Below, one piece after another: positions 11,019 to 56,954 of a stretch of DNA of 64,000 nt. This stretch comes from Candidatus Xiphinematobacter sp. Idaho Grape (GTDB lineage Bacteria > Verrucomicrobiota > Verrucomicrobiia > Chthoniobacterales > Xiphinematobacteraceae). Positions within the stretch are counted from its first letter, which is position 1. Each line of letters starts with the position of its first letter. Position numbers and translations under genes: made by a program. The stretch covers positions 806,001-870,000 of the forward strand of contig NZ_CP012665.1 of the NCBI RefSeq assembly GCF_001318295.1, in the 5' to 3' direction. The notes under the pieces are model-generated. The model saw nothing but the letters and a program-made list of their open reading frames with translations, did no database searches and was not told where the DNA came from.

Positions 11019-11717
11019 ATGCAGAGAGTAATTTCTTCTAGACGTCTGTTTCTTTTTGACATTGATGGTACTCTCCTTACTTCTGCTCATGCCGGCAAGC
11101 ATGCGCTGAGGGATAGCATGCAGAGCCAATTTGGTATCAGAGAAGACCTTACCGGCATCCCTCTTGCTGGAGCTACGGATGGGGCGGTTGCTAAAGCTTT
11201 ATTAGCCAAAAACGGAATACCGGTTACTCAAGAGAATACTGCCTTCTTGCTAGAAGGATATCTTAGGCATCTTAGCGAGCGTATCTACTACCATCCAGGA
11301 AATCTCATGCCAGGAGTTCTAGAATTGCTCCAGTATCTGTCTCTGCGTCCTGACTGTGTGCTAGGTCTCCTTACTGGAAATCTCGTGCGAGGTGCCCAAA
11401 TCAAGCTGACATTTTACGGTGCTTGGCATTTCTTTGAGTTTGGTGCCTTTGCAGACGACCATGACAACCGCAACGAGCTTGGAAACGTAGCTCGCACCCG
11501 CGCTTGCAAAATCTACGGAATCGAATTCCCACCCGGGCACATTTACGTTGTCGGAGACACCCCAAGCGACATTGACTGCGGAAGAGCCATCAATGCGCAC
11601 ACCGTGGCAGTCGCCACGGGGGAGCATTCTATGGAAGAACTGTCTCAATTTCAACCAGACTTTCTTTTCAAGGACCTTCTGGATACAAGCAGCGTGCTTT
11701 ACTCACTACTCAGGTGA
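11019..11717 (+). CDS. HAD-family phosphatase, phosphoglycolate-phosphatase-like
   Basis: The protein has 232 residues with all HAD motifs: motif I DIDGTL with the nucleophile at about residue 14, motif II LLTGN, a lysine-containing segment, and motif IV GDTPSDI. The cap region is of the small helical Gph type. It probably dephosphorylates a small metabolite such as phosphoglycolate, but HAD specificity cannot be read from sequence. It begins 47 bases after infC. Its last 12 bases overlap the convergent glycosyltransferase gene. Confidence 0.85.
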   Translation: MQRVISSRRLFLFDIDGTLLTSAHAGKHALRDSMQSQFGIREDLTGIPLAGATDGAVAKALLAKNGIPVTQENTAFLLEGYLRHLSERIYYHPGNLMPGVLELLQYLSLRPDCVLGLLTGNLVRGAQIKLTFYGAWHFFEFGAFADDHDNRNELGNVARTRACKIYGIEFPPGHIYVVGDTPSDIDCGRAINAHTVAVATGEHSMEELSQFQPDFLFKDLLDTSSVLYSLLR

Positions 11718-12809
11718 AGTAAAGCTTGACGTCCAAATTTGGAGGCTGACCGCGATTCTAATCGCGTCCAGAGTTCTTCGCACATTTTTTTCGACGGAAA
11801 AGGTTGCCGCGGTCTCTATCCTCATGTATCGGCCAGCTGTACGCTTCTCTTGCGGCAACCATCGCTCTAATGCTGCAGTAAGGCTGCCTACATCGCCAAC
11901 CTCTACTGCATTTCCAAGCTCCTCATTTTCGAGCAGCTCTGAAAAACCATTGGAAAATGTAGTAATTACTGGCAACCCCGATGCAAGTGCCTCCAGGCAT
12001 GCATTTGAAGAGGGATCGTAAATAGTTGGTAGAAGAAAAATGTCTGCTGCTGCATAAAACGGAGCAATACAGGAGGTGGGCCCAGCGAATATGGTGTGGG
12101 GAAGAGCATATTTTTTTGAGGGCCCTTGCCCTACTACCAGCAATTTTGCTTGCCCCTTCAAAGCATAGATCGCTTGTACTGCAAAGCGTAATCCCTTACG
12201 TTTCCAACCAGTTCCGGCAAAAAGCACTACTGTTTCTTTAGAAGACAGACCATACTGGTTTCGGATACGCATGCGATCCCTTGAGGAAGCTGGTTGAGGC
12301 TGAAACCCATTTGGAATCAGCAAAATACGCTCCCTTGGAAAGTCATAGTACTTTAGAATCTCTTCCAGAACCATCTGTGAGTTTGCAATTACCAGCGCCG
12401 TACGATAGGGATCGAAAGCAGACCGTTCTAGTCTTAAAATCTCCATGTGCTTGGAATTAAGAGAACGGAACCAGGCTTTCCACGCAGGCTCAAACTTTTT
12501 TCTCCTACGTAGCCAAGATGCATGTACCCCATCCCCTGCACGGTAAACATCGCACCTTAAGACTCTTTCCAGGCTCAATAGACAGTCAAAGTCTCGTTTT
12601 TGAGCATGAAGGGCACGCGCAAATCTTAGGGGAGTATCGCCAGGAATGTAGCAAACTTTACCGTAAGGCCATGCCCTCACAGGCCACTTATCTGAGCTGT
12701 AAAGCCTCACCTCCTCCCCATTATCTACCAACCCTTGTACCAACCGAGATAGGTATGCTTCCGCCCCACCAGTGGAAGAATAGCCACGACGGGCTAAGGC
12801 TATCCTCAT
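11706..12809 (-). CDS. GT4-family glycosyltransferase, LPS-core-like
   Basis: This is a 367-residue GT-B glycosyltransferase resembling WaaG. It opens with MRIALARRGYSSTGGAEAYL and has CDVYRAGDGVHASW, the nucleotide-sugar site VLFAGTGWKRKG, and the donor-binding EALASGLPVI preceded by DIFLLPTIYDPSSN. The family adds sugars to the LPS inner core on the cytoplasmic side of the membrane. ATG 12809 is preferred; TTG 12824 would add five residues. It lies beside a GT9 gene (divergent, 12940), and gmhA and lptD elsewhere in the window fit an LPS role. The exact sugar is unknown. Confidence 0.82.
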   Translation of the reverse strand: MRIALARRGYSSTGGAEAYLSRLVQGLVDNGEEVRLYSSDKWPVRAWPYGKVCYIPGDTPLRFARALHAQKRDFDCLLSLERVLRCDVYRAGDGVHASWLRRRKKFEPAWKAWFRSLNSKHMEILRLERSAFDPYRTALVIANSQMVLEEILKYYDFPRERILLIPNGFQPQPASSRDRMRIRNQYGLSSKETVVLFAGTGWKRKGLRFAVQAIYALKGQAKLLVVGQGPSKKYALPHTIFAGPTSCIAPFYAAADIFLLPTIYDPSSNACLEALASGLPVITTFSNGFSELLENEELGNAVEVGDVGSLTAALERWLPQEKRTAGRYMRIETAATFSVEKNVRRTLDAIRIAVSLQIWTSSFTSPE

Positions 12810-12939
12810 ACTATGAGGGGCCAAACTCGACCTGGTAGGCTAGAATGGATTCCGCTAGGAAAACTTCCCTCATAATTTCAAAAGACGCTAACACTGGATC
12901 GCCCTGGTACAATCTATCACCAATCACCATAAAGTTCCG

Positions 12940-15163: not shown

Positions 15164-16393
15164 TTATAGCTTTAGCAGGTCAGCTTTTTGGAAAGGATGA
15201 GCAGGGAGAGTCCCCACATGCTGCAGGTCTTCTCCTCGTAGGAAAAGGAGCCGGCGGATAACCTCCTCGATAAGATTGTTGGGGCAACTAGCACCTGCAG
15301 TGATCCCGATTTGCAGAGGGATACTGGGAAGCCACTCCAGGGTTCTTACTTCTCTCTTAAGGCTGACGTGGAAGTGACGGATAAGGTTTACAGATTCTAA
15401 ACACTGGCTTTCATGAATGAAATACGTGGGCAGTTCCATCGTACTTCCAATCTCTGCGAGATGGGCCGTGTTGGAGCTGTTGTATCCGCCAACGACTAGA
15501 AGAAGATGTAGTTGCTTTGAATGAAGTAGACTAAAAAGGGCATCCTGGCGTTCTTGGGTTGCGCTACAGATAGTATCAAAGGAACGAAAATTCCTCTCCG
15601 AGCCTCCATCGCGCCCTGTGATGGCGTTCCGAACACGGCGCTGAACCTCCTCCGTTTCCATTCGCAGCATGGTAGTTTGATTGGCCACTCCCACCCTTTC
15701 TAAATGGAGATCTGGATCAAATCCAGGTGAATAGGCCCCTTGAAAACAGCGTAAAAAACTACTTTTTCTTCCTCCTTTTCGTATATACTCGCAGAGGGTT
15801 TCCGTTTCCTCCAAATTCAGGACAATGAGGTAGTGGTTGGTATCCTTTCCCAGGGCATAGGAAGCTGTGGCCTGAGTTTCCTCGTGAAAGGCCTTTCCAT
15901 GGATGATGGAGGTAATGTTCTCGCTGGCGTTCTGCCGCACTCGCTTCCATACACTCATTACATCTCCGCAAGTGGTATCCACAATTCGGCAGCCAATCTG
16001 TCTAATCCGCTTGAGAAGTAACAGCGGGACACCAAAGGCCGGGACAATCACCACATCTTCCTGCCGAAGAATGCTAAGATCTGGATGTGTCTTATTGACA
16101 AGGAGGTTCTGAATCTCTAGCGCACGCATCTGGCGGTTTACCTCCGGGTTATGGATGATTTCGCCAAGGACGAAAATCCTGTTCCCCTGAAAGACCTTGC
16201 GGGCTGCGTAGGCGAGATCTATAGCGCGCTCAACACCGTAGCAGAACCCGAATTTTTTTGCCAGATGGATGGTGGTGTACCCTAACTTAAAGGTGCCTCC
16301 GTGGGACCGGATATACTCCACTAATGGGCTCTGATAGTGCGCTTCCACCTGGGCTTGAACACGTCCCATCACTTCTGGCGTACGGAGATTCAC
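15164..16393 (-). CDS. ispH: 4-hydroxy-3-methylbut-2-enyl diphosphate reductase, long form
   Basis: IspH carries out the last MEP-pathway step, giving IPP and DMAPP from HMBPP with a 4Fe-4S cluster. The three cluster cysteines are in FCYGV, DTTCGD and GASCPN; GEIIHNPEVN, HGKAFHEET and VGGYNSSNT are the substrate-site blocks. At about 409 residues it is the long form seen in cyanobacteria, plastids and PVC bacteria rather than the roughly 315-residue E. coli form. The start is uncertain: TTG 16432, GTG 16393 and ATG 16369 are in frame, and GTG 16393 gives the usual VNLR beginning. The gene looks intact although dxs is broken at 55 kb. Confidence 0.93.
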   Translation of the reverse strand: MNLRTPEVMGRVQAQVEAHYQSPLVEYIRSHGGTFKLGYTTIHLAKKFGFCYGVERAIDLAYAARKVFQGNRIFVLGEIIHNPEVNRQMRALEIQNLLVNKTHPDLSILRQEDVVIVPAFGVPLLLLKRIRQIGCRIVDTTCGDVMSVWKRVRQNASENITSIIHGKAFHEETQATASYALGKDTNHYLIVLNLEETETLCEYIRKGGRKSSFLRCFQGAYSPGFDPDLHLERVGVANQTTMLRMETEEVQRRVRNAITGRDGGSERNFRSFDTICSATQERQDALFSLLHSKQLHLLLVVGGYNSSNTAHLAEIGSTMELPTYFIHESQCLESVNLIRHFHVSLKREVRTLEWLPSIPLQIGITAGASCPNNLIEEVIRRLLFLRGEDLQHVGTLPAHPFQKADLLKL

Positions 16394-16595
16394 TGTAGTG
16401 ACCAGATAAATTATCTGTTGGACGAATGTCAACTATTTCCTAAAATGGTTCACTTTCCTGCGGCGCAAGGTAATGAGATACAAAGCCTTTGAAGCGGAAA
16501 GCGCGAAGGGTTGCCTGCTAAGAAAATAAAGGTACACTTTTCAGGAGTTTTTGTATACCCTGCAGCCGCTTCGGGCGTGTCTACCAAAAAAAATA

Positions 16596-50143: not shown

Positions 50144-51105
50144 CTAAAGGGGTGAGGGAGCGCTAGAACCTTGATATTCGAATGGAAATTTGGACTTCCA
50201 GGCCAATACACTTTCAATGATGTTTCGTATATCCTGATGACAGGGATACCAACCCGGTTCATTTCTGATCTTTCCTGCCGCAGCGATTAGTGCGGGAGGG
50301 TCTCCTGGACGTCGGGTTTTTTTCACGGTGGGGATCAGGCGCTGCCTGTAACCTTCCTGCAACATTCGATCATCTCCTGCACGGGAAATTGTTCCCCCGT
50401 CCCCTAAAAGTCGTACCGGGCACTTTCTGGGGCCTTAAGAACAAGAGTATGGGCCTGAGTAACGTCCCCAGGACACGAGTGTAATCCCGAATACAAGCGC
50501 TATCTGGAGTTGGATAGTCGATACCGCAAATCGCAACCGCTCCTTTTTGCTCAAGGGCTACTCTAAAAGCATTAGGAATGAAGGGTATTTCACAGCAGTG
50601 GTCTGCCCCAAGCTTTTCTGCAGCTTCTGCCGGATCGAAACAACCTAACACCACTACGGTAAATCCATAGAGCCTTTCGCACCAGCAGAGGATTCCTTCA
50701 AAAAGGAGCTCGGACGCACCACAGAAATTAGCCGGAGTCTGAGCTGAAGTTTTACCAACCGGCATTCTCTCTGGAAATCCAAACATGGTACAAGCGGACA
50801 AAAAGACCAACCCAGACGCACCATGCTAGTGTGTCTAACAAGATTAGTTCCATAAGAAAATGTTGTTCCGAAAATATTTCTTCGGGCTGGATGTGGACCC
50901 CCACTGAGGCAGTGGCAGTAAAATTATACAACCGCTCGCGTGATCCTAATTCATTATCATTACACGATGAAGAGCCCGTGCATCTCCTAGATCACCCCCG
51001 AAAAGGGCAGGACGCGAAACCAGCCCCATATTGGCCACCATCAGGCAGCTGCTCAATGCAAATGCTACCAATACAATCCGCTCTGCCAGTAATAAAAATC
51101 TTCAT
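50144..51105 (-). pseudogene. galE: UDP-glucose 4-epimerase pseudogene
   Basis: Blocks matching GalE appear in order on the minus strand but in different frames. From ATG 51105, MKIFITGRADCIGSICIEQL corresponds to the Rossmann start with GGAGYIGS mutated. GDLGDARALHR and KYFRNN follow near 50900-51000. A long frame at 50370-50810 has VFLSACTMFGFPE, IDYPTPDSACIRDY; the catalytic YxxxK is not recognisable there. RRPGDPPALIAAAGKIRNEPGW ends the gene at 50144. Several frameshifts and lost catalytic residues make it non-functional. GalE normally interconverts UDP-glucose and UDP-galactose. Confidence 0.88.
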
Positions 51106-53510: not shown

Positions 53511-54896
53511 GTGGCCCCCTTAAAACCAACGCTCCTAGTTGTCGACGACGAGAAGAACACTAGGGAAGGGCTACAGGCGTCTCTGGAAGATGCATTTGAA
53601 GTCTTTATTGCAAGCAATATGGATGGGGCTCTTGCTATATTGTGCGAAGACTCAATAGATGTACTTATCACAGATCTAAAGTTGGGAGCAGATAACGGTA
53701 TACGTCTTATAGATGCTGCATTAAAACTTCACCGTCCTCCCCTTTGTATCATGGTAACTGCCTATGGCACGGTAGACGTGGCTGTAGAAGCCATAAAGCG
53801 TGGCGCTTATGACTTTGTTACCAAGCCTGTGAATCTAGAAAGGCTAGAGCTGCTTATCAGACGTGGTTTGCGAGAGAAGGGGACTAAAAAAGGAGATCAG
53901 GATTTAAAGCAGCAAATGGAGCGTAAATTTGTGTCGGAAGGCATCATTGGCACCTCTTCTGTGATTACTGAAGCCGTACAGACCATCAGGCAGGTTGCCT
54001 CCTCAAGAGCTACAGTCCTCATCTTAGGGGAAAGTGGGACAGGCAAGGAGCTAGCAGCTAGAGCTATTCATTACTTGAGCCCTCGCTCTGCTGCATCATT
54101 TGTGGCTGTACACTGCGCTGCCCTTTCTCCCCAATTGCTAGAGAGCGAGCTTTTTGGTCACGAGAAAGGAGCTTTTACTGGAGCTGTGGAGAGGCGTATT
54201 GGGCGTTTTGAACAGGCAAGTGGTGGGACGTTATTCCTGGATGAAATTGGTGAAATTGACCTTAATACACAGGTGAAAATTCTGCGTGTCCTAGGGGAGC
54301 ACACTTTTGAACGTGTGGGCAGTAATCGCACCCTCAAAACCAATGTACGGCTTATTGCTGCTACGAACAGAAATCTCACGAAACTCGTAAGTGATGGAAA
54401 ATTTCGGGATGACCTCTTTTTCCGTTTGAATGTGGTACAAATTACCATGCCCCCTCTGAGAAGGCGTCGAGAAGACATTCCCATACTAGCTCAGGCTTTT
54501 CTCAAGGAGTCCTGCCGGGAAAATGGGAAACCTCTCAAGGAAATAGATACTGATGCAATGGCCCATCTATTGGAGTATCATTGGCCTGGCAACGTGAGGG
54601 AGCTCCGCACAGTCATTGAACACGGTGTGGTGATGAGCAACAACCCACGTATTCTTTCCAGAGATCTCCCTGTTGCAATACACTCTAGACTGGTCTCTAC
54701 ACCCACCACTCATTTGCCAAGTCCCTACTTACCACTACCTCCAGAACCTCTAACTCTCAGAGAAACTCAACATAATCTCATCCTCCAGACTCTGGAAATA
54801 TGTAAGGGTAACCGTAGTGAAACCGCTCGCAAGCTGGGTATTAGCCGCCGCACTCTATACCGACGTCTACGCCAATTAGGGGTCCAAAGGGACTGA
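53511..54896 (+). CDS. NtrC-family sigma-54-dependent response regulator
   Basis: The 461 residues hold three domains. The receiver (phospho-acceptor D55 in VLITDLKLG, KPVNLERL near 109) is followed by the AAA+ domain with Walker A GESGTGKE at 173-180, the sigma-54-contacting GAFTGA at 220-225, and Walker B GGTLFLDEIGEI. A C-terminal Fis-type helix-turn-helix (NRSETARKLGISRRTLYRRLRQLG) completes it. It should remodel sigma-54 RNA polymerase at enhancers. The start is GTG 53511. Its kinase is not adjacent; the NtrB-like kinase at 22.6-23.8 kb is a candidate partner. Confidence 0.93.
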   Translation: MAPLKPTLLVVDDEKNTREGLQASLEDAFEVFIASNMDGALAILCEDSIDVLITDLKLGADNGIRLIDAALKLHRPPLCIMVTAYGTVDVAVEAIKRGAYDFVTKPVNLERLELLIRRGLREKGTKKGDQDLKQQMERKFVSEGIIGTSSVITEAVQTIRQVASSRATVLILGESGTGKELAARAIHYLSPRSAASFVAVHCAALSPQLLESELFGHEKGAFTGAVERRIGRFEQASGGTLFLDEIGEIDLNTQVKILRVLGEHTFERVGSNRTLKTNVRLIAATNRNLTKLVSDGKFRDDLFFRLNVVQITMPPLRRRREDIPILAQAFLKESCRENGKPLKEIDTDAMAHLLEYHWPGNVRELRTVIEHGVVMSNNPRILSRDLPVAIHSRLVSTPTTHLPSPYLPLPPEPLTLRETQHNLILQTLEICKGNRSETARKLGISRRTLYRRLRQLGVQRD

Positions 54897-54940: not shown

Positions 54941-55560
54941 TGCAATATCGTGCTGGACTTTCGAGGAGATGGGCCGAGACACGTACTACGTTTGATATTG
55001 AGATGAAGTCGAATTTCGAGGCGTGCTGTGGGCCATGATGCACTATCAGGGTAGACCAATTGCTATCCGTTATCCTCGTGGTGTCAGTACTGGGGCGCGC
55101 CTGGAAGGATCCTCTCGACCTTTGGAAATTGGCAAATCGGAGGTTCTCCATCATGGAACGCAAGTTGCTCTGTTTAGACCCGGCAATATGTGTGAATTGG
55201 ACTTGGAGACTTCTGAATTGCTCAAAAAAGAAGGAATCAGTATAGCTGTAGTCAACGAACGCTGGATTTGAAGCCGCCAGATGGTCTCACACTCAAATTC
55301 TTTGCCCGCTGTTGCTTGTAATTTGTATAACGGAAGACCGTCATGTTCTTCACAATGGATTTGGCAGTGCTGTACTCGAACACCCTAATGGTATTTACAT
55401 TACAATTCCTGTGGTGTGCATGGGATGGCCAGACAGCTCCGTCAAACATGGGACCGTTTCTATTTTATGCCAGAAGTACGGAATGATCGCTACAGTCACA
55501 GTTAGTCGAACTTTAGCAACTCTCTCCTCCCATTCACCCCAATCTGCCATCAACACCTAG
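54941..55560 (+). pseudogene. dxs: 1-deoxy-D-xylulose-5-phosphate synthase remnant
   Basis: Only the C-terminal third of DXS remains, in several frames. It includes GDGPRH near 54970, then PIAIRYPRGVSTGARLEGSS (about 55060-55120), the transketolase C-domain start LEIGKSEVLHHGTQVAL, ELLKKEGISIAVVNERWI (to about 55270), and after further shifts ITEDRHVLHNGFGSAVLEH (about 55325). It ends at TAG 55558. The thiamine-diphosphate domain is missing entirely. DXS makes the first MEP-pathway intermediate, so this copy cannot work. Confidence 0.85.
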
Positions 55561-55595: not shown

Positions 55596-56954
55596 ATGCC
55601 TAGTGCTATTCGTATGGAGAAGATAGTTAGCCTCTGTAGGCGTAGGGGATTTATCTTTCCGTCCTCTGAAATCTATGGAGGTCTCAGTGGCTTTTGGGAT
55701 TATGGGCCATTGGGAGTCGAACTAAAACGTAATCTTAAGAACTTCTGGTGGCGGCGTGTCGTCCATGAGCAGGAGGATGTCATAGGGCTAGATGGATCTG
55801 TCATAATGAACCCTGCTGTATGGAGAGCTAGCGGCCACGAAGAATCCTTCATCGATCCCATGGTGGACTGTCGGTCCTGCAAAATCCGGTACCGTGCAGA
55901 CCAGCTTCCAAAAGGGGAAAACACTGTTCCCTGTTGCCCACATTGCGGGAGTCGCGATTTAACTGCTCCTCGTTCCTTTCATCTCATGTTCAAGAGCTTT
56001 ACGGGTCCTGTAGAAAGTAAGGAGAGCCTCGTCTATTTACGTCCTGAAACTGCGCAGGCTATTTTTGTTCAATTTAAAAATATCCTAGATGCCTCTCGTC
56101 AGAAAATCCCCTTTGGGATCGCTCAAGTTGGAAAGGTATTTCGCAACGAAATTAATCCCCGCAACTTTACCTTTCGCTCTCGCGAGTTTGAGCAAATGGA
56201 ATTGGAGTACTTTTGCAAAGAGGAGGACAGCCTTTTTTTTCTAGAAAAATGGCTGAAGGAAAGGCTTCGCTTCTATGCCGACATTGGCATTCCCGGTACC
56301 AAGATTTGCGTGCGCGAAATTCCTGAAGAAGAACGTGCTTTTTACTCTAAAAAAACTTATGATCTCGAGTACGAGTTTCCTTTTGGGACTCAGGAACTAG
56401 AGGGTATTGCCTATCGTACCAACTACGACCTTGTCCAGCATGCTCGTTCCAGCGGTAGGTCTTTAGGGTGTTTTGAAGAAGAAACCAGGCGACACTTTAT
56501 TCCCCACGTGGTAGAACCCAGCGCTGGTGTAGACCGTGCAGTTCTTGCTCTCCTTTGTGAAGCATTTGACGAAGAAATGATAACTGGCAGCCTGGGAAAA
56601 TCCGAAGTCCGTACCGTTCTCCGTTTTCATCCACGGATGGCCCCCATTAAATGTGGAGTCTTTCCCCTCCTCAAAAATAGGCCCGCATTGGTAGCAAAAG
56701 CTAAGGAAATTGCTTTCTCCCTTCGTGGCCATTTAAATATCGCCTACGATGAGGCCGGCGCTATCGGCCGCCGCTACAGGCGGCAGGATGAGATAGGCAC
56801 CCCCTATGGCATCACCGTTGATTTTGATACCGTCAGCGAAAGAAACCCTGTCCTACGTAATACAGTCACCTTACGTCACCGCGACTCCATGAAACAGGAA
56901 CGTATTCCCATCTCCGAACTAAAGTCCTTCCTCCTCCGAGGAATAGAGGAATGA
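55596..56954 (+). CDS. glyS: Glycyl-tRNA synthetase, alpha-2 type
   Basis: A 452-residue class II synthetase of the homodimeric (eukaryote-like) type: FPSSEIYGGLSGFWDYGPLGVELKRN, motif 2 around IAQVGKVFRNEINPRNFTFRSREFEQMELEYF, and motif 3 in PSAGVDRAVLALL. A zinc-ribbon-like CRSCKIR...CPHCGS insert lies near residues 90-112. A C-terminal anticodon-binding domain follows. It charges tRNA-Gly. It follows the dxs remnant on the same strand. The gene-poor stretch 56955-57828 follows. Confidence 0.95.
   Translation: MPSAIRMEKIVSLCRRRGFIFPSSEIYGGLSGFWDYGPLGVELKRNLKNFWWRRVVHEQEDVIGLDGSVIMNPAVWRASGHEESFIDPMVDCRSCKIRYRADQLPKGENTVPCCPHCGSRDLTAPRSFHLMFKSFTGPVESKESLVYLRPETAQAIFVQFKNILDASRQKIPFGIAQVGKVFRNEINPRNFTFRSREFEQMELEYFCKEEDSLFFLEKWLKERLRFYADIGIPGTKICVREIPEEERAFYSKKTYDLEYEFPFGTQELEGIAYRTNYDLVQHARSSGRSLGCFEEETRRHFIPHVVEPSAGVDRAVLALLCEAFDEEMITGSLGKSEVRTVLRFHPRMAPIKCGVFPLLKNRPALVAKAKEIAFSLRGHLNIAYDEAGAIGRRYRRQDEIGTPYGITVDFDTVSERNPVLRNTVTLRHRDSMKQERIPISELKSFLLRGIEE

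Follow-up and report, generated by a model that had tools for sequence, protein, structure and literature searches.

Bacteria lacking only Dxs, the first enzyme of the MEP pathway, have already been reported. A survey of 4,400 species counts 181 that lack only Dxs, and the origin of DXP in such bacteria is an open question, since the mechanism is given as unknown for 172 of the 181 (PMC10663253). A 2026 review also mentions one Spiroplasma species without Dxs (PMC13001223). E. coli can overcome the loss of Dxs through suppressor mutations in either aceE or ribB (PMC3424233). The genome of Candidatus Xiphinematobacter sp. Idaho Grape, resident in a root-feeding nematode, is a well-resolved and testable new case. 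It adds a dead gene, the branch on which it died and the continued constraint on one later gene, all visible in a pair of reduced genomes.

The complete sequence of Idaho Grape is a single contig of 915,884 bp (99.84% complete) that encodes approximately 818 proteins, and the window analysed here is a stretch of 64,000 nucleotides covering its positions 806001-870000. The reduced congener G003 (contig of 917,278 bp), a sister symbiont, served as the reference for the pairwise comparisons, and G001, of the same genus and 2.5 Mb in size, as the third sequence in the branch tests. G003 looked collinear with Idaho Grape, as the expected gene was present in 10 of 11 stretches picked on the assumption of collinearity. 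No reduced Xiphinematobacter genome appeared among the best 80 of 288 glyS matches to genome contigs, from which very near genomes were possibly omitted. The features discussed below are listed in Table 1.

Table 1. Features of the Idaho Grape window bearing on the loss of dxs (window coordinates)
Feature	Position	Strand	Evidence and remarks
NtrC-family sigma-54 response regulator	53511..54896	+	Upstream neighbour of dxs in Idaho Grape, G003 and G001
Deletion junction (1,463 nt relative to G003)	54946..54947	+	Alignment to G003 L038
dxs remnant (decayed C-terminal third)	54947..55542	+	TIGR00204, tblastn with congener Dxs and DNA alignment; 3' limit approximate
glyS (glycyl-tRNA synthetase)	55596..56954	+	Downstream neighbour of dxs in Idaho Grape, G003 and G001
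ispH	15164..16432	-	TIGR00216 227.2 bits (cut-off 187.85), residues 54-395 of 422; NF009911 494.7 bits

The initial annotation described dxs as a C-terminal fragment spread over several frames, and three kinds of alignment bear this out. The TIGR00204 model matches the locus in two pieces, the first at window 54999-55271 (G000:C1:860999-861271; model positions 443-532, E 3.6e-16, 57.2 bits), with two TGA codons inside it, and the second at window 55333-55494 (G000:C1:861333-861494; model positions 552-605, E 0.005). The intact Dxs of G003 aligned to the remnant by tblastn as three pieces in differing frames. At the same place and between the same two neighbours, G003 has an open dxs of 633 codons, and 534 of the 654 positions aligned between this region and the ntrC-glyS interval of Idaho Grape are identical. 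Compared with G003, the large deletion took 198 nt upstream of the dxs start together with approximately the first 421 codons, and the remaining sequence carries six further, smaller frame-breaking indels. The deleted part includes the N-terminal domain PF13292, so no open frame for Dxs is left, and the best remnant piece reaches 57.2 bits against a full-length TIGR00204 cut-off of 465.95 bits, far from what a functional Dxs would score. Because the order ntrC-dxs-glyS also occurs in G003 and in G001 (where the dxs locus, L017, lies within the glyS locus, L049), the remnant is the ancestral copy and not a spare one. This synteny rules out an old duplicate, a reading that the initial annotation had left open. 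A large deletion and several small indels wrecked the ancestral dxs on the Idaho Grape lineage, after its split from the dxs-bearing sister.

No second dxs, as had also been suggested, and no split one was found when the single-contig genome was searched as a whole with PF13292 and TIGR00204. PF13292 gave three matches, of which two are alpha subunits of E1 and one is transketolase. Among the seven TIGR00204 matches (up to E 1), two are the remnant pieces and the other five fall into three regions, namely two alpha/beta pairs of pyruvate-dehydrogenase-type E1 and, again, transketolase. The dxs of Idaho Grape is a pseudogene of the sole copy found. Across Idaho Grape and its relatives, at least 51 of the 57 genomes searched have a dxs above the cut-off among the matches listed. 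The other six are Idaho Grape itself; G002, G039 and G048 (73, 82 and 88% complete, respectively); G031, whose dxs is in two pieces that lie on separate contigs; and G032, with a C-terminal piece only among the matches listed. Several relatives encode an additional protein, about 320 codons long, whose match to the Dxs model is confined to the C-terminal half, with roughly 140-185 bits (for example G044:C60:3554-4471, G023:C426:3708-4625 and G016:C45:16127-17038); it is perhaps a split transketolase-like enzyme. The TIGR00204 search found no such protein in Idaho Grape, and none is among the matches listed for G003.

The initial annotation proposed checking for dxr, ispD, ispE, ispF and ispG, and all five are present. 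Together with ispH they are open, family-typical and above their TIGR cut-offs, while several narrower PRK-named models place MEP proteins of both symbionts below the cut-off. IspH is intact as the initial annotation had read it: in addition to its TIGR00216 match, it has the cysteines of GFCYGV, DTTCGD and DTICSAT, which we take to be the cluster residues. Alignment of Dxr to solved structures shows that the stretches PVDSEHNA, SGGPF and NKGLE, presumably catalytic, are kept; what we take to be a phosphate-site serine reads cysteine in both symbionts. At the DNA level, neither DXR nor IspD has any internal indel relative to G003. IspG has one compensated +1/-1 frame-shift pair at codons 296-301, and the parts of the six proteins covered by their family models (approximately 5.7 kb) contain no other frame-shifting indel; the rate of the remnant (six per 654 aligned bases) predicts about 53. 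On this count it is unlikely that ispH is about to be lost, an option that the initial annotation had offered. Outside those spans, the pairwise comparisons with G003 contain frame-shifting indels close to the start of both IspE and IspH, in the last ~20 codons of IspF (L036:1486-2031) and IspH, beyond the family domains, and in the last two codons of IspG. Only two GHMP kinases were found, IspE and homoserine kinase, and since both are otherwise assigned there is no mevalonate kinase of this family among them.

Substitutions in the remnant were assigned to branches by three-way parsimony with G001, leaving out the sites where all three sequences differ. Changes at codon positions 1, 2 and 3 number 18, 19 and 14 on the Idaho Grape branch versus 11, 4 and 16 on the G003 branch, and there are 30 amino-acid changes on the former versus eight on the latter (binomial p 0.0005). 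To judge by these sequences, the change is neutral on the Idaho Grape branch and constrained on that of G003, which suggests, in relative terms and not as a formal date, that dxs has been non-functional over much of the Idaho Grape branch. By comparison, 12 orthologous control genes accumulated 151 changes on the Idaho Grape branch and 195 on the G003 branch, and dxs differs from them in relative rate (p 5e-5). IspD, the sole MEP gene with a G001 sequence for a branch-specific test, behaves as the controls do (8 changes in Idaho Grape versus 15 in G003, p 0.52). The input to this test was 34 of the 38 gene pairs for which omega was calculated (E2_2, rseP?, W18104 and W19189 were omitted, the data giving no reason); 15 of the 34 had a G001 match, IspD and 14 others, of which E1a_2 and E1b_2 were dropped as paralogue matches, leaving the 12 controls. 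Names in the control list such as cdsA, rseP and pyrF are partly our guesses. One control, W11706, is itself uneven: this glycosyltransferase (window 11706-12824, minus strand; L048:11411-12493) has changed much faster in G003, with 22 changes versus six in Idaho Grape.

The pairwise omega between Idaho Grape and G003 is 0.348 for the remnant versus 0.10-0.21 for the six MEP genes. The median of the latter (0.13) is, against our reading of continued use, slightly raised compared with 32 controls (0.096, p 0.03), with every MEP value inside the control range of 0.036-0.229 and below that of the remnant. Family scores, an indirect view of selection on the MEP genes other than IspD, are higher in Idaho Grape than in G003 for DXR (432.9 versus 414.6 bits), IspD and IspE, and lower for IspF, IspG and IspH. 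The neutral remnant, set against an unaccelerated IspD, indicates that the later MEP genes seem still in use and, we infer, have been used continuously since the death of dxs.

With Dxr retained, what has to be supplied is DXP itself, and a Dxr under selection would mean that DXP is available. The initial annotation had proposed import of DXP or of a later intermediate. Supply from outside survives as an option; a later intermediate is disfavoured, since Dxr is intact and family-typical, which speaks for DXP, and the source that we regard as likeliest, another enzyme of the same cell, had not been considered. The cell probably obtains DXP by a route other than Dxs. Other uses of this compound appear to have lapsed. 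The gene pdxJ, present in G001 (G001:C6:44062-44781), was not found in Idaho Grape or G003, so DXP is seemingly no longer used for vitamin B6 in the two reduced genomes. The thiG gene is broken in Idaho Grape (G000:C1:629317-629864; L135, L136, L139), where it lies in several pieces with a stop and a missing stretch, and in G003 (L134:1501-2241), where it is interrupted by a single internal TAG and has a stretch out of frame. Since it is also broken in the dxs-positive G003, the loss of thiG is not supported as a consequence of the loss of dxs. By their sequences, the uses of DXP for PLP and thiazole are gone or broken in both symbionts. The remaining need would be for isoprenoids, and the predicted demand should be low; the symbiont cell is slow-growing. 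Elsewhere in the window, an open frame of 146 codons (window 50370-50810, minus strand) has no Pfam match and reads to us like a remnant of a nucleotide-sugar epimerase. The Idaho Grape genome paper lists both thiazole synthase and UDP-glucose 4-epimerase among the pseudogenes.

We propose that dxs was lost while the genes from dxr to ispH stayed in use and the cell still had DXP for Dxr, and that this DXP would come from a side reaction within the cell, in which a thiamine-diphosphate E1 acts on pyruvate and glyceraldehyde 3-phosphate. This last step is the least certain of the proposal, a guess. We put the E1 side reaction first on three grounds: its chemistry is suitable, Idaho Grape has two such enzymes and the demand should be low; with slow growth, and with the PLP and thiazole uses gone or broken, synthesis at a low level could be enough. 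Deoxyxylulose formation has been reported for purified PDH, and E. coli that has no dxs is rescued by mutant forms of E1; however, the wild-type E. coli PDH does not rescue the loss of dxs, which counts against the E1 step (PMC3424233). None of the known bypass mutations was found in the E1 subunits or RibBA of Idaho Grape. Where at least 90% of relatives share a residue, its E1 subunits depart at T152S (21/22), M79I (22/22) and R198H (21/22), and those of G003 depart at five other positions. Three candidate bypass changes were rejected. A run of substitutions in the alpha subunit of the first pair falls in a stretch that varies among the 22 relatives; isoleucine is found at the M79 column in both solved E1 chains aligned, presumably of Thermus and Bacillus type; and RibB G108S/D113G is absent, the RibBA stretch TTGISVQDR, whose G and D we take to be E. 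coli G108 and D113, being kept. That an ordinary enzyme common to both symbionts, most simply a PDH-type E1, is now the natural DXP synthase of the Idaho Grape lineage is put forward tentatively, at rather less than an even chance. The explanation as a whole, with a dead dxs, six later genes in use and DXP from an E1 side reaction, is the best that we have, and we would give it a probability somewhat short of one half.

Alternatively, some other, unrecognised enzyme of Idaho Grape, neither E1 nor a RibBA with the known mutations, may have taken over the synthesis of DXP, which we consider unlikely. It would account for a Dxr that is still open and family-typical, and it agrees with the large share of Dxs-lacking species (172 of 181) without a known mechanism (PMC10663253). 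Each of the two symbionts has one aldo-keto reductase. We take this to be the family of E. coli YajO, but none of the NCBIfam models recognised the Idaho Grape protein at 1e-25, the solved structure that it matches best is IolS, and the dxs-positive G003 has it too. Nothing positive points to a particular candidate. A YajO-like replacement was thus rejected as non-specific.

A supply of DXP from outside, or of deoxyxylulose combined with a kinase, would draw on the plant diet of the nematode, on the host or on another resident microbe, and is in our view unlikely. Animals are not known to have an MEP pathway. Nevertheless, the host is described as a plant-parasitic nematode whose symbiont is proposed to be nutritional (PMC4607532), and deoxyxylulose can be phosphorylated by E. 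coli XylB (cited in PMC3424233). The host also carries a minor strain with 99.4% identity and no reported change of gene content (PMC4607532); being so similar, it must be much younger than the decay of dxs and is an unlikely donor.

The whole MEP pathway might also be useless by now, the host providing IPP or prenyl chains, with the six genes not yet decayed. Rickettsia and Orientia reportedly obtain isoprenoids from their hosts (PMC13001223), and the slightly raised omega of the MEP genes, the frame-shifting indels in the IspF and IspH tails and the altered stretch of IspG all fit such a reading. We nevertheless hold it to be unlikely too, given a single compensated indel pair where some 53 indels were expected, an IspD that is not accelerated on the Idaho Grape branch and a DXR more family-typical there than in G003, all this although dxs has apparently been dead for much of that branch. 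Finally, an assembly artefact hiding an intact dxs is extremely improbable: the conclusion comes from assembled sequence, but the published genome has a depth of approximately 1,290x (PMC4607532), the flanks are collinear with G003, and the neutral-pattern substitutions spread along the remnant are not something that an assembly error would create.

No report of a dxs pseudogene, or of the loss of dxs in a symbiont, was found among the titles and abstract openings listed in literature searches, and the terms "dxs", "deoxy" and "xylulose" are absent from the main texts of two published Xiphinematobacter papers. With the loss on one branch, a dxs-bearing and apparently collinear sister, some 818 proteins and the other uses of DXP gone or broken, a replacement within the cell must be sought in a very small list. 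If an E1 does act as the natural DXP synthase, Idaho Grape would be a natural version of the dxs bypass seen in the laboratory, and its dxs-positive sister genome would offer a matched comparison. Such an in-cell replacement would be relevant to metabolic engineering and to the use of Dxs as a drug target.

Compared with the bacteria reported to lack only Dxs (PMC10663253, PMC13001223), Idaho Grape likewise keeps the enzymes after Dxs, all six being present, with Dxs undetected in a single-contig genome that is 99.84% complete and no mevalonate kinase among its two GHMP kinases. Unlike them, its dead gene is visible in place and the loss is polarised by the intact syntenic copy of the congener, and one later gene has been tested for continued selection, with estimates for the rest. 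As in the dxs-deficient aceE and ribB suppressors of E. coli (PMC3424233), its MEP pathway would run from Dxr on without Dxs; in contrast to these, the known RibB suppressor positions are unchanged, and the E1 enzymes found are of the alpha/beta type, not AceE, and have no comparable change. Idaho Grape is host-restricted and has lost a step of the pathway, as have Rickettsia, Orientia and some Mollicutes, host-dependent bacteria that have given up making isoprenoids (PMC13001223), but it differs from them in having lost the first step only, with its six later genes open.
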